Shown here piece after piece: positions 17,661 through 42,990 of a DNA stretch of 42,990 nt. A program made the position numbers and the translations under genes. The stretch is from a virus, in the IMG/VR virus record IMGVR_UViG_3300021962_000212, positions 1 to 42,990 of that record; one strand, written 5' to 3'. Positions within the stretch are counted from its first letter, which is position 1; each line of letters starts with the position of its first letter. The notes beneath the pieces were generated by a model. That model was not told where the DNA came from, searched no databases, and was given only the letters and a program-made list of their open reading frames with translations.

Positions 17661-17668
17661 TATTTATG
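17661..17668 (-). promoter_or_regulatory. Late promoter CATAAATA upstream of gp8
   Basis: CATAAATA on the minus strand overlaps the TAA stop of the 4079-residue gene and lies 17-24 bases upstream of the gp8 ATG. It matches the NATAAATA pattern of the other late promoters here. The short spacing would give a leader of only about ten bases. Confidence 0.55.
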
Positions 17669-26600: not shown

Positions 26601-29600
26601 GCTATTGATTAAAACATCAACAATTTGACCATTTGATATAACAGGAGTTAATTGAATTCCTGAACCAGAATTAAAATCAAATAGTGGTTGACGGTTATAG
26701 TTTATAATCTCTTCAGATCCATATTGCTCACCACCAGATTGAACAAATACAGATTGAACTTCTCCTCTAAAAACAGGTTGAATAACTGCATTAAAGTCCT
26801 GTCCAGAAAGTGTAGAAACCCCAATTCTTCCAGTAACAGTTACTTGAATTTCTGGATAATTAAACTTATGTGTTCCACTACCAACAGAAGTTAAATCAAT
26901 ATATTGTTTAGTATCATAGTAAAAAGAAGTTGTAACACCTACAGTACCAATTCCAAGTTGAGATAGTCTAAAATGATTATCATCTACTCTAGTTACATAA
27001 TAAGATGTGTTAGATGACAGACCTCCAACAGAAGTTTCTGTGGCATTATATACAATAATCTCACCACTTTGATATCCATGATCTGTTATCGTAATAACGT
27101 TAAGTGCAGTATTAATTCCACTTACGCTTGTTGTTGTTAACTTATTTTGATAATTAGTACCACTATTTTCTATTACAATTGATCCAATTTTTTTCTTTTT
27201 ATTCTTGGATTTAAATGAATGATTTCCTACTCCGTAAGAAGTAATTTGAAATGTATTAATACCGGCAACAGCATCTTCAAATGATCTATGAAGTTTTATG
27301 TTAAATGCATCTTGAACCGAAACATAATAAGTGGAGTTTGTAGAAAGACCACTTATTGTAGATATTCCACCAACAATAGGTGATTGTCCATCAGTAACAT
27401 AAACAACCTCTTCTGCATCTCTAAACTTATGATGACTTGAAAAACCAATTGTGTTTACTGGATTTAATTTTACCAGACCGGCAGAACCTTGCGAATTGAA
27501 AGAAACAGAATGGTCAAAACTAATTAATTTTGCAACAGCAGAAGCACCCGATCCATTTCCTCCAGTAATATTAATCTTAGGATCTTCCAAATAGTCAAAT
27601 CCAGGATCAATAATATCAATTCTTTCAAGTCCACCTATAACTGAACAATGTGCTTCTGCTCCAAATCCAATAGGATCAGTAATAGTTACTGTTGGAGTGT
27701 TAATAATATCATATCCAGATCCAGGTGCTATTGGAATAATTTTTTCAATTGGACCATAGTAAACATTATCTTTTGACTTATAATTGAGAACTTCAATACC
27801 GTTTACAAAAATACCAGTTAATCCAGGATTTGTTTCATAAGTATTTCCATCATTTTCTGGTGATGAAATTTTTCTAATTAACTTCTGAGATTCTAATGCC
27901 TGAGTGCTTAAATTTCTATAAGTAAAATCAGTTAATTCAAATTTTGCATTTGTGACCGTTCCATCAACAGAGACAAAATTTTCTGTAAAAATATTTGTTC
28001 TACTTCTTGCTAACTTTACTTGAGTATCACTTACTTTTTTTATAAAATATACACCAGTTGATATCCCTAAGGTATTTGTTGGTGATGGTTTATAAACTAT
28101 TGAATCTCCTGTATAAAATCCATGAGAGATTCCTAAATCTAAAGTTGTTCCTTTTGTTAAGTCTTCGACATCATCTGGCACAAATGTTCCACTAAAGACT
28201 ATTGATCTATCATTTATTTTTAAAGTTCTATTCAGATAGGTTGGAAGTGATGATGCAGAAACATATAAAGATTCATCATTCTCATAGTAAATGTTCTGAA
28301 TATTTGATGTATATTGATTTACTGAAGGATAATTTTCCGAAGATACTTTTGTTATATTTTTTTTAGCGAAATATAAAAGACTTGTATCTAATAGTATATT
28401 TTCTGATCCAAGTTGAACAGTAAAAGATTTTTCATTGATAAAGGAAATAACAAATCCAGTATATTCTACTCCACTTGAAGATAATAAAGAAACTGAATTA
28501 CCTATCTTAAAAAAGTGATCATCATAAAGATTGATTATGTAAGACTTATCTGAACTATCTAAAAGTTCTATAGATTTTACTTCATATTTTACTGAAATAT
28601 TAAAAAACCAGTTATTTGACTTATAATCTTTAAGATCTATACCAAGAGTTTTTATTTTTATTATATCTTCTTTTGAATAAAAATGAGTATTATCTGGTAA
28701 ATTTAATTTAGATAATACGCTCATTATTCTAATTTTTACATTTTCATCTTTTGAAGATGCAAATCCATTTGTTTTTATTTCTGTAGATTCTGGAATATCT
28801 TGAGTTATTCCATTGCATTCTAAAAATTGGTTTAATGTTTTTTTCGTATAAGTAACACTTAAAGATGTTCCATTTTCCAAATCAATGACAAGATTTCCAT
28901 TTGTTTTTGGAAATCCTACTGTAGAATCAACTTCTAAAGTATTTGAACCAGAGATTGTAGTTAAAATGTTTTTTGTTTTTGGATGGATAAGAAAATTTCC
29001 GTAAACAGATCCTACTGGTTGTATATCTTTGTCGTAGTCTGAATCTAAACTTATGGTATAATAGTCTTTTTCACCTCTTCTAATTTTTTCTACTTTGGTT
29101 ACAGTTCCTTGTGCAATTATTTCTCCATCAGAATCTTTTTGATAAAGAGTTTCATTAACTAAATCTTCAGGATTACCTTCAATTTCTTCTACAACCAAGT
29201 CAGAAGTAATTCTATATTGTGCATCAGATGGTTGAATTAAATAATCTCTAGGTCTAATAACTTCAACATTTTGACCATACAGAGCACCAAATAAAATCTT
29301 AAAAGAATTATCAGTTCCTTTTGAGGAATAAAAATCTATAGATTGCTTAATAAAAAGATTTTCATTTAATTCAGAATATAACTCTCTTTCTTCAAATCCA
29401 GGAGTTACTTGTTTTTTAACTTTAATTAAAAATTCTTTTAGAAAAAGAATACTTAGATTGGATACTATTGTAGATGCGCTATGCTCTTGCGCTTCAGTTT
29501 CTGTAAAAGTTAATTCATCTTTTGTTTTATAAGAAGTTACACCATTGAATCCACGCACACATCCTTCAAAAGTCGTAGAGGTTTTTGAAGTATATGTAAT

Positions 29601-29903
29601 GACTTCAGAATCAATTAATAAGAGACCATAAGATTCTGGAAATCCCGCAGTGGAAGTTACATTTATTGTGGTATCAAAAAAAGTTACATCAGATATTAAT
29701 TCGGTTGACTCAATTAGATTAGTTAAAGTATCAACTTTAATATATTGATCAATGTTTTGAAGGATATCACTTACGTTTCCTTGACTTTCTAAAGAAGTAT
29801 AATATTGTGATAAGAATTCGGAAACAAGAGGAAACTCTTCTAAAACAAACTGAGGTAGTTGATTTTCAACGATGGAATTGATTTTGATTCTGGTTTCTGT
29901 CAT
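17664..29903 (-). CDS. Giant virion protein (4079 aa) in the gp7 position, YHYH-type motif
   Basis: The N-terminus MTETRIKINSIVENQLPQF, the LSILFLKEFLIKVKKQVTPGF stretch and DFYSSKGTDNSFKILFGALYG belong to a cyanophage structural protein family found between gp6 and gp8, where T4 encodes the wedge organiser gp7 (1032 aa). The N-terminal 250 residues probably anchor it in the baseplate. Near residues 1245-1265 is IIGWAYDGNPIYGPYGY, the signature of YHYH-type domains. At least six degenerate repeats start with an HGxxTGDxVxY-like strand followed by YYV (near residues 594, 828, 941, 1748, 1911 and 3051), several ending in GSGTHxF. More than ten GxGY modules are spread over the length. It is about four times the size of gp7, so I infer an anchoring head and a long beta-repeat shaft. 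The gp7 assignment is positional. Confidence 0.88.
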   Translation of the reverse strand: MTETRIKINSIVENQLPQFVLEEFPLVSEFLSQYYTSLESQGNVSDILQNIDQYIKVDTLTNLIESTELISDVTFFDTTINVTSTAGFPESYGLLLIDSEVITYTSKTSTTFEGCVRGFNGVTSYKTKDELTFTETEAQEHSASTIVSNLSILFLKEFLIKVKKQVTPGFEERELYSELNENLFIKQSIDFYSSKGTDNSFKILFGALYGQNVEVIRPRDYLIQPSDAQYRITSDLVVEEIEGNPEDLVNETLYQKDSDGEIIAQGTVTKVEKIRRGEKDYYTISLDSDYDKDIQPVGSVYGNFLIHPKTKNILTTISGSNTLEVDSTVGFPKTNGNLVIDLENGTSLSVTYTKKTLNQFLECNGITQDIPESTEIKTNGFASSKDENVKIRIMSVLSKLNLPDNTHFYSKEDIIKIKTLGIDLKDYKSNNWFFNISVKYEVKSIELLDSSDKSYIINLYDDHFFKIGNSVSLLSSSGVEYTGFVISFINEKSFTVQLGSENILLDTSLLYFAKKNITKVSSENYPSVNQYTSNIQNIYYENDESLYVSASSLPTYLNRTLKINDRSIVFSGTFVPDDVEDLTKGTTLDLGISHGFYTGDSIVYKPSPTNTLGISTGVYFIKKVSDTQVKLARSRTNIFTENFVSVDGTVTNAKFELTDFTYRNLSTQALESQKLIRKISSPENDGNTYETNPGLTGIFVNGIEVLNYKSKDNVYYGPIEKIIPIAPGSGYDIINTPTVTITDPIGFGAEAHCSVIGGLERIDIIDPGFDYLEDPKINITGGNGSGASAVAKLISFDHSVSFNSQGSAGLVKLNPVNTIGFSSHHKFRDAEEVVYVTDGQSPIVGGISTISGLSTNSTYYVSVQDAFNIKLHRSFEDAVAGINTFQITSYGVGNHSFKSKNKKKKIGSIVIENSGTNYQNKLTTTSVSGINTALNVITITDHGYQSGEIIVYNATETSVGGLSSNTSYYVTRVDDNHFRLSQLGIGTVGVTTSFYYDTKQYIDLTSVGSGTHKFNYPEIQVTVTGRIGVSTLSGQDFNAVIQPVFRGEVQSVFVQSGGEQYGSEEIINYNRQPLFDFNSGSGIQLTPVISNGQIVDVLINSPGSGYNSPPTLQINGTGVGAILTPIFSNGSLVEVKVIYGGIGYRSANTSIDVIPAGSGAKLEAQIKSWKINLVERLIQNSQIPEDDGILSTGLNNEYGLEYTHAYAPRNLRSSVQGSRFKDGKKVYVQDLQLLNDKELDSNAHSPIIGWAYDGNPIYGPYGYSSKTGGAVKCLVPGYVKKQNIINDPSRPSTSIYSEGLFVEDYIYDGNGDLDEHNGRFGITPEYPNGVYAYFTSINNGLVESSGLFQNYKKPVFPYVIGPSYKSRPINFNFESTSNQDNIDINQTGWRRNISPYNISLYDYILNPNTIKSQNSIVKSISTGSVDSIGIETGGQNYKVNDKVIFSGSSIQSAKAKVSLIKGKLVNQISVATSSFDDVQFYPYNQEFIGFTSVPHNYLNNDLVTFTGKYDYKKSGNITVNANNLALISGVGSAQYTGLVTYFSVTGNLGFPNIKENDIYQIGSEEIKVLNIDPVSSRIRVLRNQNGTTGVTSYSAGIALTEKPRKFKLNFGISTSYNFDIDKEFYFNPNESVGLGTTSGVGINSTFFVSVNNFNNQVSIGTGSTTFLFFNNLSDLQNYKSGGYIDIVNATNTSFNTTKQKIIGIGATSIKINFDSSSLSGVGVTAYVNKWNILEIPTQSIYIKDHNLNTGDSLIYSSNGGTRLSVSTNGSSSFVLGEKSIVYVAKISNDLIGISTIKVGVGSTGTFVSAGSTIQSGILYFTSVGTGNTHSFKTNYTNTLSGQISKNVVTVSTAETHGLSLLDNITVNVKPGISTTITVKYNDYNRRLVVNPKTFSTIDIVNSIITINNHGYYTGQKVIYTATTPASGLVNHAIYYVVVIDSNKIKLSNSYYQATKVIPEVINISSSQPGTISSINPPISLIKNQTVVFDLSDTSLSFIGAGITYSAFDFRLYKDERFIEEFNTTESSTIFELTKTGNIGIDSTAKVTLSLNDNVPNNLYYKLIPINLNINSQTKKEIIIDSDVSGYNQLTLLESGYNGNHVVVGVTTESFKYNILEIPESISYSTGIEYYTNSSSVIGSIYEINLKNGGRGYSVLPGITSIASNSGTGAILNPISNSIGKIVSTEIQDIGFDYPSDYSIRPKPNLPEILILDSLSSFDYIGISSFGRNYNTPPNLVVIDGLTNKVIKDVDLTYQSGDSQVTILKNSTEISKATPRIVPVNNSNGIKIKNIVFNNSTKDVTVTLGSSFSDPEDFPFFVGEKVLIEGTSVGIATTEKGYNSSNYDYALFTVKSVDPKLGGANGIVTYSLSEYISNGEIPGNFNSFYSSGKIIPQSHFPIFNPVLKKNNFYRGEDVYSSSALGTVEFWDPINQYLKVSTDQNFKVNEIIRSKTLGSVSLIKNIIKFDSDYGLNSYSKLRKGWNTETGFLNNNLQRIHDSDYYQYFSYALKSQKDLDTWNDSVSNLNHTAGFKKFGNLIIESNPIFSGISTDQNQGDFSGTADLSRFIDLNCVQDFDLARENNLIIDGIVSSDEIIFNSRIIQDYIESIGNKVLMIDNISNQFNSNPRSTSFSTIDSFTLSDFRSQKYIILVKDRKLSNEVQVSLVSLVNDTNNGFLNQYGVNSSNDLGFFDFNITGTEGNLLFYPIKSKFNDYYTANVSFSLNDVVSGVGTVDLGNSVRIRTNTTTIPTGTNTSTTIVGIASTYRSSKVLVQIGATDSSYYEYDEITYIHNGSEVFFIDYGQITTDNFISKSTSGIGTYNAYISGNNVLIDLIPNDSTTVDYVVNTFNVSLANTSLSGVGTQTIGGASLDSSSVSIAASTSPVANIISSYSSTFNSGLPQNDCSYSIISIEDKTNSQYQISEFLTITDLSNNECYILEFGTLNSGNSLGITTAGILGEHTKTYFTPIANIDVDVKVFQVALQLSDQTFDLSLINGGLHYDYGTYVGTDNDIKKSFNLTHKNDPIFQKYFDGGSSSVVRTNTDVIRIPNHFFVTGEEVEYSYSGTGSNSIGIATTSIPGIGTTDKLPSTLYIVKINDLDVQVASSASNALKSIPNVLDITAVGIGSSHIFTSKNQNKKSIISIDNLIQSPVTSTAVTTTLSKNVGLFDSLITISGISTIFGGDLLKIDNEIMRVTSVGVGSTNTISVLRPWLGTGLSTHTSSALVTKVFGNYNIVDNTLYFDEAPYGKVPILNPTNRPDELDYIGIATGATFTGRVFLRSGEENTSTEPYAQNYIFDDISDNFNGSDKTFVLKTDGSNVTGISTDNAIVLINNIFQGPNAPNIIDNYNLVENSGITTITFIGNSAATHDVNTASIPRGGIILSIGSTQGFGYQPLVSAGGTAIVSTAGTIQSISIGNSGSGYRVGIQTIVNVGVKAIGSEDSNIEFVGIASISNGNIVSVAITNPGVGYTSSNPPIVVFDYPLSYSNIPLIYSSQSSSGVGTGLVADIVVGQGSSVISFELKNLGYGYKQNEILTVSIGGTTGIPTNTSLSFSEFQITVDKIKSDNFAAWTVGRLQVIDPLDSLFDGNRKTFPILINGNQTTIRSRRGSDVDVQATLLVFINDVLQVPGSGYTFNGGSILRFTEAPKEGDTSKILFYRGTGDLDTQNVDILETIKVGDSVSLKDESIELTENDRVVTEITSSDVINTNLYPGPGVSKVDALLRPLTWCRQTEDMFVNGSYVAKDRNIYEPYINPNTNIIQNVSTGSTSIFVESVKTFFDSEKEYVHDGTTEKPQNKILIISQDNITSAAATAVVSSSGTVSSIIISDGGVGYSTIPTITIAGPIGFGTTVSQNTAKATATISNGVVTGIAITTSGLGYSSSEPPAVLIESPSLNYEVIDKVSYDGDFGLITGINTTSVGVASTGIVFDFFIPNNSVLRDGKTVKVGIATTGISGIQTGYYFVVSKSNVGKGLTSLNSSGGVVGIGTTFIDNIYQVAAVSIAQTAVAGVGITNVAKVTVSVSGYNGLTGLGFSGFYGEYSWGRILTPVRSTPEQFTTYANTGGISTSPIVQRYNRLKYIGYSTS

Positions 29904-35710: not shown

Positions 35711-35914
35711 TCAGGCAGAAGGCATAACACCTTGGAGCATCAGATTGAGGTTCGTTTCGTTATGCTCAGACTCGATAACTTCGATGTGCTCAACGTTACC
35801 GATCATCTGAACATTGTGCAGACGCTCATACCAGGCGTCGAACAGTTCCCAACTCTTAGCGGCACAAAGTTGGAAGGCATTCTCGATAGCGGTGTTCAGT
35901 TCGATTTGAGACAT
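35711..35914 (-). CDS. Hypothetical protein, 67 aa
   Basis: This 67-residue protein starts MSQIELNTAIENAFQLCAAK, followed by SWELFDAWYERLHNVQMIGN. It is probably helical with an acidic C-terminal half (HIEVIESEHNETN). It heads the unit after repeat copy 1, with 24 bases between TAGTAT and the ATG. Function unknown. Confidence 0.7.
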   Translation of the reverse strand: MSQIELNTAIENAFQLCAAKSWELFDAWYERLHNVQMIGNVEHIEVIESEHNETNLNLMLQGVMPSA

Positions 35915-35938: not shown

Positions 35939-35969
35939 ATACTACTGATGCACTTTGAAGGGCCCAGTT
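35939..35969 (-). repeat. Unit-head repeat, copy 1
   Basis: Full 31-bp copy reading on the minus strand AACTGGGCCC first and TAGTAT last. One loop base differs (TTCAAA for TTGAAA). The upstream gene's stop is four bases before it and the next ATG lies 24 bases after it. Confidence 0.9.
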
Positions 35970-35973
35970 TTAA

Positions 35974-36177
35974 TCAGCAGTGGCCAGAAGTGTGATAGAT
36001 CTTGTTGCAATCCTGCATCTGTGCTTTACCTGAACGGCGACTAGATGCTTTCATCTTCACGCCTAAAGCTGACTTGCGGTTATAACGTACTGCAGAGGGC
36101 AATACTGTTACACAAGGCACCACACCTGCACTCTGAAGATCATCAATCAGTGACAGGAGTTGTTGAGTGGAAGTCAT
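35974..36177 (-). CDS. Hypothetical basic protein, 67 aa
   Basis: This 67-residue protein starts MTSTQQLLSLIDDLQSAGVV, followed by a basic middle (VRYNRKSALGVKMKASSRRS) and a His/Cys-containing end (CNKIYHTSGHC). The cysteines and histidines could bind metal, but spacing gives no known finger. It is the only gene in the unit after repeat copy 2. Confidence 0.65.
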   Translation of the reverse strand: MTSTQQLLSLIDDLQSAGVVPCVTVLPSAVRYNRKSALGVKMKASSRRSGKAQMQDCNKIYHTSGHC

Positions 36178-36199
36178 CAGATGTTTCAGTGTGGTGCTT

Positions 36200-36230
36200 A
36201 TACTACTGATGCACTTTCAGGGGCCCAATA
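36200..36230 (-). repeat. Unit-head repeat, copy 2
   Basis: Full copy with small differences: TATTGGGCCCC at the 5' side and CTGAAA in the loop. GGGCCC and TAGTAT are intact. The change C to T in the stem still allows a G-T pair. Start codon of the next gene is 22 bases after it. Confidence 0.88.
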
Positions 36231-36254
36231 GTATTCACTGTGCGTCCTTATGTG

Positions 36255-36428
36255 TTACCAACGGTCGGGAGTTGACAGGTCTTCCACATAAGCCTCACAC
36301 CTCTCAGCTGGTTCCAACTTGAATAGTTTCTCCCAGTCAATCTGATGCGGGTCAAAGTCAGGAAACGCGGAGATGTCTAGAGTGATCCTATAACGAACCT
36401 TCTGTGCTTGACTGTATGCTACGGACAT
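36255..36428 (-). CDS. Hypothetical protein, 57 aa, first gene after the main promoter
   Basis: This 57-residue protein reads MSVAYSQAQKVRYRITLDIS, then AFPDFDPHQIDWEKLF and ERCEAYVEDLSTPDRW. It has the best ribosome binding site in this region (AAGGAG, seven bases before the ATG) and lies 29 bp from the -10 box of a consensus promoter, so it should be strongly expressed early. Function unknown. Confidence 0.75.
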   Translation of the reverse strand: MSVAYSQAQKVRYRITLDISAFPDFDPHQIDWEKLFKLEPAERCEAYVEDLSTPDRW

Positions 36429-36456
36429 AAGTGCGCTCCTTGAGTGTTATGGGAGT

Positions 36457-36485
36457 ATTGTAAGATGTCTGAGAGTGGATGTCAA
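36457..36485 (-). promoter_or_regulatory. Consensus sigma70 promoter, leftward
   Basis: TTGACA (36480-36485), 17-bp spacer and TACAAT (36457-36462) on the minus strand: a perfect -35 and five of six at -10. It drives the 57-aa gene and probably the units down to 35163. Confidence 0.85.
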
Positions 36486-36556
36486 GGTCTGGGGAGTATT
36501 TATGGAGTGCCTGTGGATTTTTTCGGGGTATCTGTGTGGATTTTGTGACGCGGGAC

Positions 36557-36585
36557 TTGACAAACTGTGTGAGAGTGTGTTATAG
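36557..36585 (+). promoter_or_regulatory. Sigma70-type promoter, rightward toward the homing endonuclease
   Basis: TTGACA (36557-36562), 17-bp spacer and TTATAG (36580-36585) on the plus strand. It diverges from the leftward promoter, with about 70 bp between their -35 boxes. It would give a leader of about 210 bases before the endonuclease gene. The 371-bp gene-free stretch 36429-36799 holds the two promoters, this leader, and the late-type word at 36766. Confidence 0.7.
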
Positions 36586-36632
36586 CTTGCAACGTAAGAT
36601 AACGACCTAGAGAGACATTTAAATCACACATT

Positions 36633-36684
36633 ATTCTCATCAATAAACACTATTGATTCTCAACAAACTAACACATATTGAGAA
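36633..36684 (+). repeat. TTCTCA inverted-repeat cluster in the endonuclease leader
   Basis: Three related arms occur: TTCTCAT (36633-36639), TTCTCAA (36657-36663) and the inverse TTGAGAA (36678-36684). The last two can form a seven-pair stem. Could be a leader hairpin or a protein-binding site; no further support. Confidence 0.35.
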
Positions 36685-36765
36685 CAAATACACACTCCAT
36701 TTATGTTTATTTGCACATAAACTTTTCATCCATTTAGTATAGCAACTTACCAGTGTAAAACCTGC

Positions 36766-36773
36766 TATTTATA
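36766..36773 (-). promoter_or_regulatory. TATAAATA late-promoter word facing left, between control region and endonuclease
   Basis: A perfect TATAAATA reads on the minus strand 27 bp before the endonuclease start and 340 bp upstream of the first leftward gene. If active, it would re-transcribe the small-gene string late and be antisense to the endonuclease leader. Chance is possible in AT-rich DNA. Confidence 0.4.
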
Positions 36774-36799
36774 CATAGAACTAGAGCGTCTTATCAGTA

Positions 36800-37576
36800 A
36801 TGAATCAAGGTATCATTTATGCCATCTACAATAAAGAAACAGGCAAATATTACATCGGTCAAACTATAAAAGAACTCAACAAAAGATGGCAAGAACATCT
36901 ATACGAAGCAAAGAGAATGAGGGATACTCCACTATACAGATCTCTTCGCAAATATGGAGCAGATAAGTTTAAAATAAGAGTGATAGAAGAGTGCTCAGTT
37001 GATGTACTTGACGAAAGAGAAACTTACTGGATAAGTGAATACAACTCATACGATAATGGATATAATCAAACTGATGGATCTGGTGGTCAGTATAGAATAA
37101 GCGAAGAAGTAAAAGATAAAATAAGCGACTCAATGACTGGAGTTCAGAAGACACCAGAACACATTGAAAATATTAGAAAATCAAAAAAAGGTAAAGGAAT
37201 TGGTTTTACTATAAGAGGTGACGGTAAGCATAGTCGTGTTAAGATAAAAACAATAAACGTTGATACCTTGGAAGAAACTTTCTATGATAGTATAACTGAA
37301 TGTGCAAGTGGTTTAGGTATAGCAGTTTCTAATCTTCACCGTAGTATAAAGAATGGATGGAAAGTTAAAGGACACAGAATCATCAAGTTAGAAGATAAAA
37401 AGCAAAGTCACGCAATCTATGGCGTCGATAAAGTAACAAACAAAGTCAAATATACCTTTCCAAGCATAAGAGCAGCTGCAAGAGAATTGGGTTGTGGTTG
37501 TGACACTACTTGCAGAAGGTCACTCAAATATCCACACAAATATACCTGGAAAGGTTGTTACTGGTTTTACCAATAG
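36800..37576 (+). CDS. Freestanding GIY-YIG homing endonuclease, 258 aa
   Basis: This is the only plus-strand gene of the window. Residues 4-20 carry the GIIYAIYN and YYIG motif pair; the conserved Arg is in LNKRW (R29), and the catalytic Glu is in the ETYWISEYNS segment (about 74-80), followed by NGYN. Residues about 103-130 look like the NUMOD3-type linker (SEEVKDKISDSMTGVQKTPE). Two IENR1/NUMOD1-like DNA-binding repeats follow at about 150-195 and 205-255 (SITECASGLGIAVSNLHRSI; SIRAAARELGCGC). It cuts DNA at a defined site and promotes its own spread into phage genomes lacking it. It sits between the leftward early promoter and a terminator, typical of insertion into an intergenic gap. No Shine-Dalgarno precedes the ATG. 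The frame is intact, so it is probably active. Confidence 0.92.
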   Translation: MNQGIIYAIYNKETGKYYIGQTIKELNKRWQEHLYEAKRMRDTPLYRSLRKYGADKFKIRVIEECSVDVLDERETYWISEYNSYDNGYNQTDGSGGQYRISEEVKDKISDSMTGVQKTPEHIENIRKSKKGKGIGFTIRGDGKHSRVKIKTINVDTLEETFYDSITECASGLGIAVSNLHRSIKNGWKVKGHRIIKLEDKKQSHAIYGVDKVTNKVKYTFPSIRAAARELGCGCDTTCRRSLKYPHKYTWKGCYWFYQ

Positions 37577-37580
37577 ACAT

Positions 37581-37607
37581 AAAAAAGAGAGGAAACATAT
37601 CCTCTCT
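37581..37607 (-). terminator. Intrinsic terminator for the leftward small-gene cluster
   Basis: On the minus strand AGAGAGGA and TCCTCTCT form an eight-pair stem with a six-base loop, followed by a T5 run. It starts directly after the stop codon of the 41-aa membrane gene and ends five bases from the endonuclease stop, separating the two convergent genes. It ends transcription coming from 42990 toward 37608. Confidence 0.85.
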
Positions 37608-37733
37608 CTATTGATTCTGAACTGCGAAAGATTCGATTCCATTGACTACTCTATTGCCTAGATTAGCAAGTCCATTGAATCCTACTGTTGAAAGAATGAT
37701 ACCAACGACTACACCAATGAAGAACTTTGACAT
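37608..37733 (-). CDS. Tiny membrane protein, 41 aa
   Basis: This 41-residue protein starts MSKFFIGVVVGIILSTVGFN, followed by GLANLGNRVVNGIESFAV. Residues 4-20 form a single hydrophobic helix with a small-residue (Gly) face; the rest is polar. It could be an uncleaved signal anchor. Its ATG shares one base with the stop of the 42-aa gene (TAATG), and its stop precedes the terminator stem immediately. Function unknown; membrane proteins of this size could affect the host envelope, but nothing specific is seen. Confidence 0.75.
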   Translation of the reverse strand: MSKFFIGVVVGIILSTVGFNGLANLGNRVVNGIESFAVQNQ

Positions 37734-37861
37734 TATACTAACTCAGCAGGACTTCCACATGAGAGATAGAACTCTACCATACGTTTTGCCTCATCTAATG
37801 TAGAGAATGACTGTGTTCTCCATTGTTGTTGATAAGGTGTAAAGTAACGGATCGTGAACAT
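37733..37861 (-). CDS. Hypothetical protein, 42 aa
   Basis: This 42-residue protein reads MFTIRYFTPYQQQWRTQSFS, then TLDEAKRMVEFYLSCGSPAELV. The beta hairpin plus helix with TLDEAKRMVEFY is a known style of small phage proteins that process inputs with a strand-strand-helix fold. Spacing: 11 bases after the 55-aa gene and a TAATG overlap with the 41-aa gene. Function unknown. Confidence 0.7.
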   Translation of the reverse strand: MFTIRYFTPYQQQWRTQSFSTLDEAKRMVEFYLSCGSPAELV

Positions 37862-37872
37862 TTTTATTTGAT

Positions 37873-38040
37873 TCAGTTAGAGTGAAGAATGGTGATCATC
37901 TTTTGGTGATAGTCGTTTGCTTCTACCTCACATTGATGAGACTGTGTTGCATCTTCGATCTCATATTGTTTCATATCAAGACGATGAATGACGCTTTCTA
38001 GAAGATCAGTTAATGCTTCGATCTTTTGTTCGTTAGTCAT
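37873..38040 (-). CDS. Hypothetical helical protein, 55 aa
   Basis: This 55-residue protein starts MTNEQKIEALTDLLESVIHR, followed by LDMKQYEIEDATQSHQCEVE. Two amphipathic helices with heptad character suggest a dimeric coiled coil. A longer reading of this frame upward overlaps the 105-aa gene, so I start at the ATG seven bases after that gene's stop. Function unknown. Confidence 0.7.
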   Translation of the reverse strand: MTNEQKIEALTDLLESVIHRLDMKQYEIEDATQSHQCEVEANDYHQKMITILHSN

Positions 38041-38047
38041 CACTTTA

Positions 38048-38365
38048 TCAGTTAAGGCGCATACCATTGAAGAAAGGAATTGTAGTTCCATCAGACATAC
38101 GGAACTGCCAAACATAGTTCTTTTGGAATACACTTTCATTGCCAATTCCATGAGCACGGAGAAGTGCATTAAGACGGCTCTTTGTGGTGTTTGATTGCCA
38201 ACCACCATCGAAAAGTTGCATCCAGGTATCACCAATCTTAGCGATCAGATTGTTGTGCAGATACACCTCAGATACACCTTCATAGTTGATCACTTGAGTA
38301 TTGTCTTTCTTCCAGTCAATCTCTTGAATGATTGCCTGATTCATTTGGGATTCGATCTTACGCAT
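38048..38365 (-). CDS. Hypothetical protein, 105 aa
   Basis: This 105-residue protein contains YEGVSEVYLHNNLIAKIGDTW and DGGWQSNTTKSRLNALLR, then VFQKNYVWQFRMSDGTTIPF. Strand-rich ends around a KSRLNALLRAHGI helix suggest a small alpha/beta domain. The phrase TKSRLNALL occurs in phage proteins that I cannot assign. Alternative start eight codons in (MNQAIIQEID). It heads the four-gene unit after repeat copy 3. Confidence 0.75.
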   Translation of the reverse strand: MRKIESQMNQAIIQEIDWKKDNTQVINYEGVSEVYLHNNLIAKIGDTWMQLFDGGWQSNTTKSRLNALLRAHGIGNESVFQKNYVWQFRMSDGTTIPFFNGMRLN

Positions 38366-38391
38366 GATTTGTTTGTTGAAGTGTTGTGCTT

Positions 38392-38422
38392 ATACTACTG
38401 ATGCAGTTTCAAGGGCCCAGTT
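38392..38422 (-). repeat. Unit-head repeat, copy 3
   Basis: Full copy with one change (ACTGCATC for GTGCATC region, base 17 G to C), the same change as in copy 7. Upstream stop seven bases before it, next ATG 26 bases after TAGTAT. Confidence 0.9.
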
Positions 38423-38429
38423 CTTATCT

Positions 38430-38702
38430 TCAGAACTTTTCGATCCATTGTGCAATCTTTTGCAGTGCAGTTTCCTTATCATTGCACTTGCACTTACGGA
38501 ACTTAGTAGTGTTCAAACCTTTTGAAATCAGTTCCAGTTTGCCATCAGCAAGACAGAAGATTCCGTAGCGAGAGTTATGAAAGATATTGTTAATCCACTG
38601 ATCTTGACTATCAGCACTGACCTTAAAAAAGGTGGAAGTGTGATTCGCAAGAGTGCTATTGTCGATGTGAAGGTAAGGAAAGGACATTTGATTGTTGCTC
38701 AT
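38430..38702 (-). CDS. Hypothetical protein, 90 aa
   Basis: This 90-residue protein starts MSNNQMSFPYLHIDNSTLAN, followed by HTSTFFKVSADSQDQWINNI and a KCKCNDKETALQKIAQWIEK end. The first ATG is made by the last bases of repeat copy 4; a second in-frame ATG six codons in (MSFPYL) is an alternative start with spacing like other units. Function unknown. Confidence 0.7.
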   Translation of the reverse strand: MSNNQMSFPYLHIDNSTLANHTSTFFKVSADSQDQWINNIFHNSRYGIFCLADGKLELISKGLNTTKFRKCKCNDKETALQKIAQWIEKF

Positions 38703-38731
38703 ACTACTGATGCACTTTCAAGGGCCCAGTT
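38701..38731 (-). repeat. Unit-head repeat, copy 4
   Basis: Consensus copy. Its TAGTAT is followed by G, so the start codon of the 90-aa gene lies inside the repeat end. The upstream stop codon is four bases away (TGATAGA junction, as at copy 6). Confidence 0.92.
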
Positions 38732-38735
38732 TCTA

Positions 38736-38942
38736 TCAGGCAGCGATTGCAGACTCTACACATACCTCACGAGTATCCATGAGAGAGTAATCGAAACCTT
38801 CATTCTCTTCTAGATGCTTTTGATAAGCAACAGCAGCAGAGAAGCAATCAAACAAGCGGAGAGATTTGAAGTCTTCACCTTCATAATCAAAACCACCGAT
38901 GACAGCGTAGACTTTAGACATTTGAGAAGTTGCAGTGTTCAT
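38736..38942 (-). CDS. Hypothetical protein, 68 aa
   Basis: This 68-residue protein has the core MSKVYAVIGGFDYEGEDFKS and LRLFDCFSAAVAYQKHLEEN. The strand-loop-helix form with an acidic loop is a frequent design among small cyanophage proteins. Seven extra N-terminal residues (MNTATSQ) are read if translation begins in the repeat; MSKVY at codon 8 is the more natural N-terminus. Function unknown. Confidence 0.72.
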   Translation of the reverse strand: MNTATSQMSKVYAVIGGFDYEGEDFKSLRLFDCFSAAVAYQKHLEENEGFDYSLMDTREVCVESAIAA

Positions 38943-38971
38943 ACTACTGATGCACTTTCAAGGGCCCAGTT
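38941..38971 (-). repeat. Unit-head repeat, copy 5
   Basis: Consensus copy, directly abutting the TAA stop of the 46-aa gene with no spacer. The next gene's first ATG is formed at its end. Confidence 0.92.
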
Positions 38972-39112
38972 TTATTCAACATAAACATATTCTCCTTCAG
39001 TATGGCAAAACTCCATAAGATAGTAATCAATACTAACACCAATTTCTTGTGCTTCAGTATAGAACTGTTGGTATTGTTCTCCGTTCAGAATGAAGTAATT
39101 TGTCTCAATCAT
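38972..39112 (-). CDS. Hypothetical protein, 46 aa
   Basis: This 46-residue protein reads MIETNYFILNGEQYQQFYTE, then AQEIGVSIDYYLMEFCHTEG and EYVYVE. It is acidic and aromatic. It follows the 65-aa gene after 48 bases and ends flush against repeat copy 5. Function unknown. Confidence 0.68.
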   Translation of the reverse strand: MIETNYFILNGEQYQQFYTEAQEIGVSIDYYLMEFCHTEGEYVYVE

Positions 39113-39160
39113 CAGTGGTGAAAGTAATAACGAATCAGGATAGATGCGAACAAAGAAAGA

Positions 39161-39358
39161 TTAAGCATTGATGATTTCGTAGTTCAGAGACTTAATGCAC
39201 CAACCAGTATTGTTGGTAATCGTATCAGTCAATTCATCCTCAGAAGGTGAAGTCCAGAGGCAAGATGTAGTCTCATTGATGATCTCATCTTGCTCGTCTT
39301 GAGTGAGATCTTCACCGTCGAAATCAAACTCAATGTTTGTTACTTTGTAGTAGTTCAT
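39161..39358 (-). CDS. Acidic protein, 65 aa; paralogue of the 70-aa protein at 40092
   Basis: This 65-residue protein reads MNYYKVTNIEFDFDGEDLTQ to TNNTGWCIKSLNYEIINA. It shares the frame (F/Y)xVTxI(E/D)FDF, EDEL/EEDL, IT, TGWCI(K/R)S(L/I)(N/D)Y with the protein at 40092-40304, so the two are duplicates or independently acquired members of one family. Strongly acidic. No function recognised. Confidence 0.75.
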   Translation of the reverse strand: MNYYKVTNIEFDFDGEDLTQDEQDEIINETTSCLWTSPSEDELTDTITNNTGWCIKSLNYEIINA

Positions 39359-39374
39359 CGTTCGTTTTGCTCTT

Positions 39375-39405
39375 ATACTACTGATGCACTTTCAAGGGCC
39401 CAGTT
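39375..39405 (-). repeat. Unit-head repeat, copy 6
   Basis: Consensus copy. Upstream stop four bases before it with the same TGATAGA junction as copy 4; next ATG 16 bases after TAGTAT. Confidence 0.92.
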
Positions 39406-39409
39406 TCTA

Positions 39410-39631
39410 TCAGGCAACAACAGTGTTCACATCAGGATTGAAAGTAACTTCAGTAATCACATCGAAATCATCACTCATTTTAACATAATTCCAGAGAGTG
39501 TCAGTCTCATCATCTACATTTTCCTGATAAAGATGAATGAAACCGTTCTCATCTTGCTTTACATAGCAACCATCATAATTCTCATCATCGAATACATAAC
39601 CAGATGCAATCAGTGCTTCAGTGAATGTCAT
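39410..39631 (-). CDS. Very acidic protein, 73 aa
   Basis: This 73-residue protein reads MTFTEALIASGYVFDDENYD, then GCYVKQDENGFIHLYQENVD and FDVITEVTFNPDVNTVVA. It is high in Asp and Glu with few basic residues and has the look of a small strand-rich fold. Acidic phage proteins can mimic DNA and inhibit host enzymes; that is only a possibility. Only gene in its unit, between copies 6 and 7. Confidence 0.75.
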   Translation of the reverse strand: MTFTEALIASGYVFDDENYDGCYVKQDENGFIHLYQENVDDETDTLWNYVKMSDDFDVITEVTFNPDVNTVVA

Positions 39632-39653
39632 TTTGTGTTTGTGTGTTGTGCTT

Positions 39654-39684
39654 ATACTACTGATGCAGTTTCAAGGGCCCAGTT
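39654..39684 (-). repeat. Unit-head repeat, copy 7
   Basis: Full copy with the same base-17 change as copy 3. One base separates it from the upstream TAA; the next ATG is 22 bases after TAGTAT. Confidence 0.9.
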
Positions 39685-39685
39685 C

Positions 39686-39907
39686 TTATTGACTGGTGAC
39701 ACTTTCGATCATTTCGTTCACATACTCTTCGTCATAGAATTGTGAAATCTCTTCGATCAATTCATCAGGAGTAGAGCAACTCTCACGCAGATTCATTTCA
39801 ATTTGTTCGGATACAAATTGCACCAAACTATCCAGATCCATTCCATCAACTAACTGCTCAACATAGTTGGCAAGAAGTGAATCGTATTGTGTTTGAGTAA
39901 GTTCCAT
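39686..39907 (-). CDS. Conserved acidic protein, 73 aa
   Basis: This 73-residue protein starts MELTQTQYDSLLANYVEQLV, followed by DGMDLDSLVQFVSEQIEMNL and PDELIEEISQFYDEEYV. I start at the ATG of MELTQ; ten upstream codons are in frame but sit in A-rich leader. The type (MELTQxQY, then DGMD and EELIEEI) recurs in T4-like cyanophages; function unknown. It is the last gene of the five-gene unit after copy 8. Confidence 0.78.
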   Translation of the reverse strand: MELTQTQYDSLLANYVEQLVDGMDLDSLVQFVSEQIEMNLRESCSTPDELIEEISQFYDEEYVNEMIESVTSQ

Positions 39908-39933
39908 TTTTGTGTAAGGATTAGGAAGTGAAA

Positions 39934-40095
39934 TCACCAGTTGATCAGTGTAGCTACATTACCAAGTTTATTCTGTTCGTCTACAATCTCCATCGCATGA
40001 TTATATGTTTTGACGGAGATGTAACGTGCTTTTCCTCTTGTCTCAGGAAACAATCCTAGTTTGTCAATGATACGAACTGTGTTTGAATGTTTCAT
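39934..40095 (-). CDS. Hypothetical protein, 53 aa
   Basis: This 53-residue protein reads MKHSNTVRIIDKLGLFPETR, then GKARYISVKTYNHAMEIVDE. Basic at the start, helix-turn-helix-like length but no clear motif. ATG overlaps the TGA of the 70-aa gene (ATGA), so it is translated by coupling. Function unknown. Confidence 0.7.
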   Translation of the reverse strand: MKHSNTVRIIDKLGLFPETRGKARYISVKTYNHAMEIVDEQNKLGNVATLINW

Positions 40096-40304
40096 TTCAG
40101 AACGTGACGATAATCAATGGATCGAATACACCAACCAGTGGCAGCTGTGATTTCTTCGATTAGATCTTCTTCATCATCAGCTTCCCAGATTTGACCTATC
40201 GTTTCCTCTGTGATTTCTTGTTGATAATCAGGATCTACATCGCCCCAGGTATCATCATCAGAGGAAAAATCGAAGTCGATTTGTGTAACTTGGAATTGCA
40301 TCAT
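40092..40304 (-). CDS. Acidic protein, 70 aa; paralogue of the 65-aa protein at 39161
   Basis: This 70-residue protein starts MMQFQVTQIDFDFSSDDDTW and ends TAATGWCIRSIDYRHVLK. The same TGWCI and FDF frame as at 39161 is present; between these lies an extended acidic loop (DPDYQQEITEETIGQIW). It is coupled to both neighbours by four-base overlaps. Function unknown. Confidence 0.75.
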   Translation of the reverse strand: MMQFQVTQIDFDFSSDDDTWGDVDPDYQQEITEETIGQIWEADDEEDLIEEITAATGWCIRSIDYRHVLK

Positions 40305-40435
40305 TTGCAGTAGGAAGGATCAACTTGGCAGAAACGATCAGCTTGTCTTTCTTGATACTCATTCACCGTTGCATAAGCTGGAATTGCAACTTTAAGACTC
40401 AGAGCAAGAGTAGCAATCAGAAGTGCGATTCTCAT
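40301..40435 (-). CDS. Small exported protein with signal peptide, 44 aa
   Basis: This 44-residue protein reads MRIALLIATLALSLKVAIPAYA, broken here after the likely cleavage site AYA (residues 20-22), leaving about 22 mature residues (TVNEYQERQADRF, then CQVDPSYCK). A basic residue, a hydrophobic run and the A-x-A box give a classic Sec signal. Two cysteines in the mature part could form a disulfide in the periplasm. It is one of few visible envelope-directed products here. Confidence 0.72.
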   Translation of the reverse strand: MRIALLIATLALSLKVAIPAYATVNEYQERQADRFCQVDPSYCK

Positions 40436-40441
40436 TGTTAA

Positions 40442-40615
40442 TCAGTCAACGACAGAGTAGCAAGCAACCCAGGAAGGAATCCCAGAAAGTGATAACGAAC
40501 CGTTGCGGGCATCGCAATAATCTTGGGCGTCATCTTCGGAGTAGAAAGGTCCAATATACTCGGGAGAATCGAGTGCATTGGAATCGAAGCGAACTGTGAA
40601 AGTGGTTTGTGTCAT
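40442..40615 (-). CDS. Hypothetical protein, 57 aa
   Basis: This 57-residue protein starts MTQTTFTVRFDSNALDSPEY, then IGPFYSEDDAQDYCDARNGS and SWVACYSVVD. A strand plus PFYSEDDAQDYCD helix is the frequent small fold seen in this cluster. The only usable start is the ATG at the end of repeat copy 8, which shows that this element must tolerate translation starting in its last bases. Function unknown. Confidence 0.72.
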   Translation of the reverse strand: MTQTTFTVRFDSNALDSPEYIGPFYSEDDAQDYCDARNGSLSLSGIPSWVACYSVVD

Positions 40616-40644
40616 ACTACTGATGCACTTTCAAGGGCCCAGTT
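40614..40644 (-). repeat. Unit-head repeat, copy 8
   Basis: Consensus copy, directly abutting the upstream TGA stop. The ATG of the 57-aa gene is formed at its end and there is no other nearby start, an important constraint on what this element does. Confidence 0.92.
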
Positions 40645-40818
40645 TCAGTAACCGTTCAGGAAGTCAGCAAGTGCTTCCTGATACTCAGTTTCAGTCTGAA
40701 AGTTACGATAACCAATCGTGAGAGGAAAGGTACGCTTTGGAGCAGAAGCTTTAGGCAGGTCACGACCTTTATCGAGAACCTGTTGAGTGTAAGGATTGGA
40801 GTTGTAGTTAGTGTTCAT
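40645..40818 (-). CDS. Hypothetical protein, 57 aa
   Basis: This 57-residue protein starts MNTNYNSNPYTQQVLDKGRD, then LPKASAPKRTFPLTIGYRNF and QTETEYQEALADFLNGY. Start codon again at the end of a repeat (copy 9), with no other Met nearby. Single-gene unit flanked by two repeats, so it looks like a movable cassette. Function unknown. Confidence 0.72.
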   Translation of the reverse strand: MNTNYNSNPYTQQVLDKGRDLPKASAPKRTFPLTIGYRNFQTETEYQEALADFLNGY

Positions 40819-40847
40819 ACTACTGATGCACTTTCAAGGGCCCAATT
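40817..40847 (-). repeat. Unit-head repeat, copy 9
   Basis: Full copy with one change (AATTGGG for AACTGGG), which keeps a G-T pair in the hairpin. The stop codon of the 47-aa gene overlaps its first two bases. Confidence 0.9.
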
Positions 40848-40989
40848 ACTTGAACACACCGTTGACACCTACAACTTTTGCAGTAGGATTTCGTGCTTGT
40901 GCAGTCTCACGCGCATCTTTTGGAGAGTTAGCATACACTTCCTCCTTAAAGACTTTACCACCAACGTATAACTGAACTTCGTATTTCAT
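40846..40989 (-). CDS. Hypothetical protein, 47 aa
   Basis: This 47-residue protein starts MKYEVQLYVGGKVFKEEVYA, then NSPKDARETAQARNPTAKVV. It has the strand-strand-helix-strand form typical of small cyanophage proteins in which a ribbon is followed by a helix APRDARE-like segment. The ATG overlaps the upstream stop (ATGA). Function unknown. Confidence 0.75.
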   Translation of the reverse strand: MKYEVQLYVGGKVFKEEVYANSPKDARETAQARNPTAKVVGVNGVFK

Positions 40990-41177
40990 AGTGTTTGAAA
41001 CTCCTGTGCTTCTTTGATGTTAGAATTGAAGAACTTTTGCAGAATGGAAGTGATTACAGGTTGCCATTCTTTATCTTTAATCAGGTCACGATTTTGTGCT
41101 TCAACAAGAAACTTAAGAATACAAGTTTCTTCATTGGCAGTGAAATTAACGCGAGTGAAAGTGTAACCGTCAGTCAT
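40986..41177 (-). CDS. Hypothetical protein, 63 aa
   Basis: This 63-residue protein starts MTDGYTFTRVNFTANEETCI, followed by a helical part (LKFLVEAQNRDLIKDKEWQP). I prefer this ATG to a TTG two codons up, because it gives the TGATTATGA junction seen at three neighbouring joints. Function unknown. Confidence 0.72.
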   Translation of the reverse strand: MTDGYTFTRVNFTANEETCILKFLVEAQNRDLIKDKEWQPVITSILQKFFNSNIKEAQEFQTL

Positions 41178-41179
41178 AA

Positions 41180-41512
41180 TCAAACTCCTAGCAGTTCGCG
41201 TTGCTCTGGTGTGAGAGATTCAATCAGTTCTTTACGCTTTTGTGCTTTGATTTCTTTCTCTTGTTGTTTCACAAGCATTTCATCCAAAATGTTATCCATT
41301 GTGTAGAAATCATAGTCTCCTCCATTATTCCAAGTGGATTCACCTTCGTTATCTACAAAGATGCTTTGATTGTAGAAGTCACCATCAACACACCAATCAC
41401 AATACAGAGTGATTTTATAACCTTCATCAGTTTGACGAAAGGTTGCGCCAGAAGGAGAAAGTTTCTGTGCTTTACAGAGAAAGTTCAGCAGTTCGGTTGC
41501 TTGGATTGTCAT
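41180..41512 (-). CDS. Hypothetical protein, 110 aa
   Basis: This 110-residue protein starts MTIQATELLNFLCKAQKLSP. It contains a Tyr/Trp-rich strand domain (YKITLYCDWCVDGDFYNQSI and NNGGDYDFYTMDNI) and a charged helical C-terminus (LVKQQEKEIKAQKRKELIES, then LTPEQRELLGV). Start chosen two codons below a TTG for the TGATTATGA junction. It resembles conserved cyanophage small proteins, but no activity is assigned. Confidence 0.75.
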   Translation of the reverse strand: MTIQATELLNFLCKAQKLSPSGATFRQTDEGYKITLYCDWCVDGDFYNQSIFVDNEGESTWNNGGDYDFYTMDNILDEMLVKQQEKEIKAQKRKELIESLTPEQRELLGV

Positions 41513-41514
41513 AA

Positions 41515-41682
41515 TCAAACAGGGGTAACTTCAACAGAACGGATCAGATTGGTGCGATCTTGTGCTAAGTAATCATCAGCAATTTTACCACAAGATGAAC
41601 GCGATTTCACAATCTTTTCTTCATACAGGTTCTCATCTTCATCAGGAACCCAATACTCAATCAGAAGACGGTAAGTGTTCAT
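41515..41682 (-). CDS. Hypothetical protein, 55 aa
   Basis: This 55-residue protein starts MNTYRLLIEYWVPDEDENLY, followed by EEKIVKSRSSCGKIADDYLA and QDRTNLIRSVEVTPV. A beta strand, a charged helix, and a final strand: compact alpha/beta fold. Joined to both neighbours by TGATTATGA. Function unknown. Confidence 0.72.
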   Translation of the reverse strand: MNTYRLLIEYWVPDEDENLYEEKIVKSRSSCGKIADDYLAQDRTNLIRSVEVTPV

Positions 41683-41684
41683 AA

Positions 41685-41927
41685 TCAGTACAGAGGGCAG
41701 AAAGAACCACAGAACTTACGAACCCACTGCAAAGTGTCATAATGACTGCGGGGTTTCGACATCACCATGCTTTTGTTTGTTTCAGTGTTGAGAGCAATAG
41801 CAACGTATTTGTGGTCACATTCTTGATACTCAGGAGTGATTTGTTGAATGAACATTTGCATCACCTTGCCTTCTTTCCAGTTGGTGACATAGTGAAAAAC
41901 TTGATCCATTTCGGTGGTTGTGCTCAT
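41685..41927 (-). CDS. Hypothetical protein, 80 aa
   Basis: This 80-residue protein starts MSTTTEMDQVFHYVTNWKEG, followed by KVMQMFIQQITPEYQECDHK, YVAIALNTETNKSMVMSKPR and a C-terminal WVRKFCGSFCP. Cysteines and histidines are scattered without a finger pattern. Second Met at codon 7 (MDQVF) is an alternative start. First gene of the five-gene unit after copy 10. Confidence 0.72.
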   Translation of the reverse strand: MSTTTEMDQVFHYVTNWKEGKVMQMFIQQITPEYQECDHKYVAIALNTETNKSMVMSKPRSHYDTLQWVRKFCGSFCPLY

Positions 41928-41956
41928 ACTACTGAAGCACTTTCAAGGGCCCAGTT
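41926..41956 (-). repeat. Unit-head repeat, copy 10
   Basis: Full copy with one change in the unpaired bulge base (GCTTCAG for GCATCAG). Upstream stop four bases before it; the ATG of the 80-aa gene is formed at its end. Confidence 0.9.
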
Positions 41957-41960
41957 CTAT

Positions 41961-42215
41961 TCACCAGCGGCCTTGTTGGATGAGAATCTTTTTGATCTCG
42001 CTATAAATGAACTGACGAAGTTTAGTGTCGGTAGTGTTATCAAAAGCATAATAAAGACGATTCAGATACTCATTCTGTGTGACACCAATGTTACCATCAC
42101 CACCGATCTCATTGAGTGATGAACCTGCTTTAGCTTTGGGTTTGCCAAAGTTACCAGTGATGTTACCTTGTGTCCTCAGTTTAGGACGAATCTTTGAGAG
42201 GTTAGAATAAGTCAT
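41961..42215 (-). CDS. Hypothetical basic protein, 84 aa
   Basis: This 84-residue protein starts MTYSNLSKIRPKLRTQGNIT. A Gly/Lys-rich basic first half (GNFGKPKAKAGSSLNEIGGD) precedes a helical tail (NEYLNRLYYAFDNTTDTKLR, then QFIYSEIKKILIQQGRW). Disordered N-terminus plus helical C-terminus is a nucleic-acid- or partner-binding design. It overlaps the 50-aa gene by 14 bases. Function unknown. Confidence 0.72.
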   Translation of the reverse strand: MTYSNLSKIRPKLRTQGNITGNFGKPKAKAGSSLNEIGGDGNIGVTQNEYLNRLYYAFDNTTDTKLRQFIYSEIKKILIQQGRW

Positions 42216-42354
42216 AATTCCATCCAGATTTCAAAGATTTAATCATTTCAGACAAAGTTTGTTCGCTACCTTTTAATCTAGGATTGCAACGACGTTTCTC
42301 AACTGGAGGTGGATTGTAGAGTTTGATTGTTGATGCTAAACGCAAATCATTCAT
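42202..42354 (-). CDS. Hypothetical protein, 50 aa
   Basis: This 50-residue protein reads MNDLRLASTIKLYNPPPVEK, then RRCNPRLKGSEQTLSEMIKS. The Pro/Arg-rich centre and a short C-terminal helix look like an adaptor peptide. Start overlaps the upstream stop (TGAATGA junction) and its end overlaps the 84-aa start. Function unknown. Confidence 0.7.
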   Translation of the reverse strand: MNDLRLASTIKLYNPPPVEKRRCNPRLKGSEQTLSEMIKSLKSGWNYDLF

Positions 42355-42527
42355 TCTTCATCCTCCTCATAAGGGAACATTTCATCATACTCTTCGTCTG
42401 TGAGAGTAAGATACTGAATATTAGCGTTCTTGTGCTCTTCAGCATACACTAACTGGTAGTGTGCGAAAGAAGAAGAGCTGGTGCTAGCAAACTCTACTAG
42501 ACCATCAACTAAACAAAGGTAGTTCAT
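42351..42527 (-). CDS. Hypothetical protein with acidic tail, 58 aa
   Basis: This 58-residue protein starts MNYLCLVDGLVEFASTSSSS and ends LTDEEYDEMFPYEEDEE, with nine acids in the last 16 residues. I choose the ATG overlapping the upstream TGA (ATGA) over a start nine codons up, which would be in the 150-aa gene. Function unknown. Confidence 0.72.
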   Translation of the reverse strand: MNYLCLVDGLVEFASTSSSSFAHYQLVYAEEHKNANIQYLTLTDEEYDEMFPYEEDEE

Positions 42528-42976
42528 TTTGCGTACAGATAACCACCCGACCAATCTGCATTTTGCAGAAGATATTCACGATCTTTGATCAATCGCAGAT
42601 CATAACGAACACCTTTCGCAGGACTACGCCAGGTTGCAGACTTGTAAACTTCACCAGTGTTCTTATCAATGAAGCAATGAACACTGCGGGAACCGCCACC
42701 ACTCACAAAGATGACTTTATGATACTTTTTACCAGTCTCAATCACATAATCAATGTCGCTCTTTCCAGACTTAAGTTCATCAATCTTGCGCTGATGATAC
42801 TCTCTACTACTCACAAGTGTAGTGCAATCTCCATAAGTATCAAGATGTCGTTGATGACCGCGAATAGAATACTGACGATAGTTGTCCTTCAGTGCTTCAA
42901 TTAGCAGCAGAGTATTCTTGAGAACATTCTCTGCAATAGTTTGTTTTGCTTGTGCTTGCATGGTAGTGTTGCTCAT
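42524..42976 (-). CDS. Conserved cyanophage protein, 150 aa
   Basis: This 150-residue protein has a helical N-terminal half (AENVLKNTLLLIEALKDNYR) and a strand-rich C-terminus: IFVSGGGSRSVHCFIDKNTG, then EVYKSATWRSPAKGVRYDLR and LIKDREYLLQNADWSGGYLY. The second part is a compact signature I recognise as widespread in T4-like cyanophages, of unknown function. The first ATG is formed at the end of the partial repeat copy 11; a second Met at codon 6 is an alternative. Confidence 0.82.
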   Translation of the reverse strand: MSNTTMQAQAKQTIAENVLKNTLLLIEALKDNYRQYSIRGHQRHLDTYGDCTTLVSSREYHQRKIDELKSGKSDIDYVIETGKKYHKVIFVSGGGSRSVHCFIDKNTGEVYKSATWRSPAKGVRYDLRLIKDREYLLQNADWSGGYLYAK

Positions 42977-42990
42977 ACTATGGATGCACT
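42975..42990 (-). repeat. Unit-head repeat, copy 11 (cut by window end)
   Basis: Only the last 16 bases of the element are in the window (AGTGCATCC followed by ATAGTAT). TAGTAT is kept and two bases of the hairpin arm differ. The rest of the copy is beyond the edge. Confidence 0.75.

Follow-up and report, generated by a model that had tools for sequence, protein, structure and literature searches.

A 31-bp element that heads units of small, early-type genes in uncultured T4-like cyanophages is probably a compact promoter, the counterpart of and replacement for the palindromic promoter of cultured relatives, with a transcription start predicted directly after TAGT. As a signal for transcription start, it seems to be of a type not described before. 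It was analyzed in a 42,990-nucleotide IMG/VR fragment (the window) and in related contigs. Most genes in the early regions of T4-like cyanophages, which are abundant phages, have no known function; the 31-bp sequence is a simple marker to find and delimit early-type units in uncultured cyanophages. If the promoter reading is right, the swapping in of a promoter class without a recognizable -10 box at orthologous genes would amount to a shift in transcription specificity inside a single phage family and would implicate a phage factor.

Copies and conservation of the element

The window derives from a T4-like cyanophage; its minus strand encodes terminase, baseplate wedge and neck proteins. Its first kb matches the 219-kb contig G001 at 82%. 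G001 is a near-complete relative with 47/49 core cyanophage genes plus psbA and psbD, and the T4 core genes and these photosystem genes bear out the cyanophage assignment of the sequence-only reading. Very large structural ORFs of 2610 and 4079 aa occupy the baseplate region of the window (8248-16080 and 17664-29903, minus strand). A psbA-like reading frame in cultured phage S-SRM01 (207459-209450) is split into three parts by stop codons, which may reflect an intron or a disruption.

Ten full copies of AACTGGGCCCTTGAAAGTGCATCAGTAGTAT are present in the window, each with 0-3 mismatches and all on the minus strand; the chance expectation from 100 dinucleotide shuffles is 0. The ten full copies and one partial copy were found where the sequence-only reading had placed them, in one orientation, and the invariance it described holds. 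GGGCCC is unaltered in 10/10 full copies, with no other GGGCCC site in the window, and TAGTAT is unaltered in 11/11 copies, the partial one included. The copies do lie just after stop codons, which fall at -5 to -14 relative to GGGCCC (-31 for copy 2). The statement that every short operon begins with the element was too broad, as some gene borders at 35.1-35.7 kb are without it.

Copy 1, 35939-35969, minus strand: predicted +1 at 35940 (ATA, no start codon); heads gene 35711-35914.
Copy 2, 36200-36230, minus strand: the most divergent, 3 mismatches; predicted +1 at 36201; heads gene 35974-36177.
Copy 3, 38392-38422, minus strand: heads gene 38048-38365 (Kyano_Gp96, PF23790).
Copy 4, 38701-38731, minus strand: in-frame ATG at 38702 overlaps TAGTATG, second in-frame ATG at 38687; gene 38430-38702.
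Copy 5, 38941-38971, minus strand: in-frame ATG at 38942 overlaps the element, second ATG at 38921; gene 38736-38942.
Copy 6, 39375-39405, minus strand: predicted +1 at 39376; gene 39161-39358.
Copy 7, 39654-39684, minus strand: predicted +1 at 39655; gene 39410-39631.
Copy 8, 40614-40644, minus strand: gene 40442-40615 (MTQTTFTVRFDSNALDSPEYIG) has no in-frame start other than the ATG at 40615 (in TAGTATG).
Copy 9, 40817-40847, minus strand: ATG at 40818 is the only start of gene 40645-40818 (MNTNYNSNPYTQQ).
Copy 10, 41926-41956, minus strand: ATG at 41927 in frame, second ATG at 41909; gene 41685-41927.
Copy 11, 42975-42990, minus strand: cut by the contig end, complete in contig L002; heads gene 42524-42976 (DUF7717).

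The partial copy reads AGTGCATCCATAGTAT, and L002, which is 99.7% identical to the last kb of the window, reads a complete AACTGGGCCCTTGAAAGTGCATCCATAGTATGAGC at this place. The contig terminus inside copy 11 is likely an assembly break at a repeat. A GIY-YIG/HNH-type homing endonuclease gene (phrog_314; 36800-37576, plus strand) interrupts the small-gene region, lying between copy 2 and copy 3 on the strand opposite to the element copies.

Pattern scans of IMG/VR yielded 54 usable contigs, in which copies were then called by weight matrix. This search for copies and their orientation, proposed in the sequence-only reading, returned 245 distinct copies in 48 contigs, 198 of them non-redundant after redundant contexts were dropped, and none of the contigs carried copies on both strands. 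The weight matrix found no copies in a reversed-sequence control, and its scores were bimodal, with no intermediate or degraded copies. The 12 copies found in G001 all sit near the two ends of the contig, either at 199.7-214 kb or around 5 kb. The element was absent from 84,980 bacterial and archaeal species genomes, which rules out a host origin, and from four cultured phage genomes scanned directly; no convincing hit came from searching 50,697 phage records with short words. G001 has 10 non-element GGGCCC sites versus about 7 expected, so avoidance of GGGCCC outside the element (restriction) was not seen there.

With GGGCCC numbered 0-5, the consensus is A[C/T]T GGGCCC [C/T/G]T[G/C] AAA G TG C ATCAG TA[G/A]T[A/G]T [G/A]A[G/A]CAC. 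GGGCCC, A10, A11, T13 and G14 are invariant in the 198 non-redundant copies and T21 (99%), A22 (95%), T24 (99%) and T26 (96%) are conserved, position classes that were partly set by the pattern seeds in copies and related contigs that are not independent. Positions 16-20 are variable and tend to be phage-specific. The sequence upstream of -12 has no conserved columns apart from the stop-codon preference, which leaves no further promoter common to the copies. Even where the upstream gene terminates elsewhere, T[G/A]A is often found at -11 (57/143), and the 5' edge of many copies holds stop codons in two reading frames. In related contigs, TA[A/G]TGTAAG variants place ATG or GTG directly before TAA, a start-stop pair within the element, and head genes whose start lies further downstream.

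A hairpin with a TTGAAA loop, earlier considered possible, was ruled out by pair counts over the 198 copies and by folding. Pair 4/13 of this hairpin is C-T in 198/198 copies and the outer pairs vary independently. No base-pair covariation was found in these copies, fold z-scores were 0.1 to 1.4, and an Rfam search of the window gave no match.

The element marks the beginnings of units, as the sequence-only reading had held. Junction gaps in related contigs, based on simple ORF calls, have a median of 46 nt at the element versus 4 nt at other junctions, where the mode is -4 (ATGA). The suggested link to gene shuffling also finds support: across element borders 18-22% of comparisons keep the same neighbor gene, versus 33% at other joints, the comparisons not being independent of one another. 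Copies differ less within one phage than between orthologous genes (3.63 versus 4.69 differences). The raised border shuffling and the within-phage likeness of the copies fit recombination at repeated borders.

Exchange with the palindromic promoter

S-CRM01, S-SRM01, P-SSM2 and Syn9 carry a different dispersed repeat (TGTGCCA-N10-TGGCACA, 28-31 nt, then TATAAT), which is taken as their early promoter. The repeat was derived by an unbiased k-mer count of short-gene regions, and the promoter thresholds were set by hand. In 2016 Doron et al. reportedly found, in Syn9 and P-SSM2, a regulatory element of early genes that was new at the time, and the palindromic promoter is presumably this "novel regulatory element" for early genes.

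The palindromic promoter lies directly upstream of 13/26 orthologs of element-headed genes versus 15/430 others (Fisher p = 5e-11), with orthologs taken from four cultured phages, among them Syn9, P-SSM2 and S-SRM01, and a control set that includes genes outside small-gene regions. Three head genes in the window illustrate this equivalence. The Syn9 ortholog of the copy 3 gene is headed by a palindromic early-type promoter, and palindromic promoters also head the S-SRM01 ortholog of the copy 9 gene and the P-SSM2 ortholog of the copy 11 gene. The same gene, at up to 96% protein identity, has the palindromic promoter in contigs L002, L038 and L030 and the element in G005, G008 and L117. Several genes differ in this way between close relatives, and DNA homology at the swapped gene heads begins only at the coding sequence. 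Both promoter types are mixed on one strand in element-bearing phages (G007, L002 and others), with at least six palindromic promoters in G007, one in L002 and one in G001. The window has no palindromic-type promoter, and the element there has only GGGCCC as a palindrome match. The one G001 unit with a palindromic promoter offered no candidate regulator: it encodes ten small proteins, which belong to PHROGs of unknown function or to none. The palindromic promoters of G007, L002, L030 and L038 have terminator-like hairpins (e.g. aggggacttgcgaagtcctcttttt) between the palindrome and the -10 box; palindrome, hairpin and -10 box form a true terminator-promoter composite in these cyanophages.

It is mainly because of this equivalence of gene heads and the swap that the element is called a putative promoter, in agreement with the promoter-like role first suggested. 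The element would serve as the functional counterpart of the palindromic promoter, whose place it would have taken at many shared gene heads.

Predicted transcription start and competing explanations

The ATG at position 25 of TAGTATG copies (ATG25) is in frame with the head gene in 84/91 copies; the same frame is found in 18/33 copies with A instead of G after TAGTAT. ATG25 is the sole possible start within 15 codons in 26 genes, and in one gene family the S-SRM01 and P-SSM2 orthologs have their N-terminus at the corresponding place. The mRNAs of the 26 genes must therefore include ATG25, at least on read-through transcripts, and read-through from upstream units could likewise select for an in-frame ATG. 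The S-SRM01 initiation region (R-T-A-A-n-C-A-A from +1) fits best at position 25 among 120 registers, an optimum not reproduced when P-SSM2 and Syn9 are pooled with S-SRM01, which blurs the alignment. Leader length from R25 has a median of 20 versus 16.5-19.5 in cultured phages, and in some palindromic promoters of element-bearing phages ATG follows the -10 box after exactly 6 nt, a leaderless arrangement. The ATG25 frame, the initiation-region alignment, the leader length and the leaderless palindromic promoters together predict +1 at the purine directly after TAGT.

Recognition would occur through the near-invariant block A[C/T]T-GGGCCC-nTn-AAAGTGC-n5-TA[G/A]T. TAGTATG copies would give leaderless mRNAs beginning with AUG, and mRNAs from TAGTATA, TA[G/A]TGTAA and TAGTATC copies would carry leaders of some 15-24 nt that lack a Shine-Dalgarno sequence. 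The model thus predicts many leaderless mRNAs, from about half of the units. The predicted start leaves no TATAAT-like sigmaA -10 box, and we infer that a phage-encoded or phage-modified specificity factor would be needed. No sigma-70 region 4 protein scored above the cut-off in G001 or the other relatives searched. A two-step cascade is a tentative elaboration. The element would then define a second early-type class without TATAAT, at which a phage factor recognizes GGGCCC-N3-AAAGTGC; the few palindromic promoters that remain, read by the host polymerase, would fire first and make this factor, and element mRNAs would start leaderless or near-leaderless at the base after TAGT.

The counterpoint to this start is that TA[G/A]T[A/G]T resembles a weak -10 box (T-12, A-11, T-7) located 17 nt after YTGGGC. 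A host sigmaA promoter with YTGGGC as a weak -35, a 17-nt spacer, TAGTAT as -10 and an activator at GGGCCC would start about 7 nt after TAGTAT and use its activator as T4 middle promoters do. The spacing is optimal, GGGCCC would be centered near -30 like a MotA box, and T21, A22 and T26 are conserved like -12, -11 and -7. We consider this organization unlikely, since TATAAT stands at the place of TAGTAT in 0/198 copies, T24 is nearly invariant where -9 is normally a weak A, leaders would come out about 8 nt shorter than in relatives, and 26 head genes would be without a start codon in their own transcript. TAGTAT is probably not a -10 box because of these start codons, and the same evidence contradicts the original expectation of a start within 10 bases after TAGTAT. 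A sigma54 -24/-12 promoter was rejected on a by-eye comparison, its spacing being off by 2 nt.

The chances are small that the element acts in the RNA, as a 5'-leader or intercistronic signal for translation in place of the Shine-Dalgarno sequence at unit heads, with transcription starting elsewhere. ATG overlaps the element or follows closely, the leaders have no Shine-Dalgarno sequence, and the ATG25 frame is under selection. However, the element has neither structure nor covariation, and upstream of it there is no other shared promoter. Relatives with the palindromic promoter also have no Shine-Dalgarno sequence, yet do not carry the element. The leader signal is less likely chiefly because the element shares gene heads with the promoter of relatives and swaps with it.

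A promoter of a single-subunit (T7/Syn5-like) RNA polymerase with a start at G12 is very improbable. The Syn5 promoter ATTGGGCACCCGTAA followed by G+1 (PMC3950665) fits at 12/15 positions in an ungapped, equal-length, by-eye alignment, and the start would fall upstream of ATG25. Against this, PF00940 is absent from the near-complete G001 (47/49 core genes) and the other contigs searched, although the Syn5 positive control matches, and conservation runs 15 nt beyond the predicted start. The candidate was dismissed for want of a polymerase. It is equally hard to credit a cassette, mobile or recombinational, that homologous recombination has spread and that regulates nothing itself: the shuffling of element borders, the closer likeness of same-phage copies and the two-frame stop codons favor it, but the strict unit-head position, single strand, frame-dependent base 27 and promoter equivalence do not.

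Comparison with known regulatory elements

PeSLs are promoter-early stem-loops of RB49-type T4-like phages, for which recombination at repeated borders has been proposed. The promoter-like element resembles them as a small regulatory cassette dispersed between genes of hyperplastic regions and tied to shuffling (0.18-0.22 of neighbors kept versus 0.33). The PeSL analogy drawn in the sequence-only reading fails in the strict sense because the element has no stem-loop and no terminator; terminator hairpins in these phages are a feature of the palindromic promoter. The element also differs from an early sigma70-type promoter sequence, with 0/198 TATAAT at the place of TAGTAT and an ATG that excludes TAGTAT as the -10 box for 26 genes.

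With TAGTAT as the -10, the element would share with T4 middle promoters (MotA box plus -10) a short block of conserved sequence some 30 nt ahead of the start. The element differs in the absence of TATAAT, and the start-codon evidence opposes that register. Marine T4-like cyanophages are without motA/asiA (PMC5780444). The Syn5 promoter has a similar GGGC..CC core, but a single-subunit RNA polymerase gene was not found in element-bearing phages by the PF00940 search.

The palindromic cyanophage promoter is unrelated in sequence apart from AACTGG. The element has no TGTGCCA-N10-TGGCACA palindrome (24 bp), TATAAT or internal terminator hairpin, and is of fixed length and near-invariant. The two are alike in heading the same gene families in early-type units (13/26 versus 15/430, and the swaps), in lying on one strand in many copies per genome of the same phages, and in A/C-rich leaders that start R-T-A-A without a Shine-Dalgarno sequence and are sometimes dispensed with altogether.
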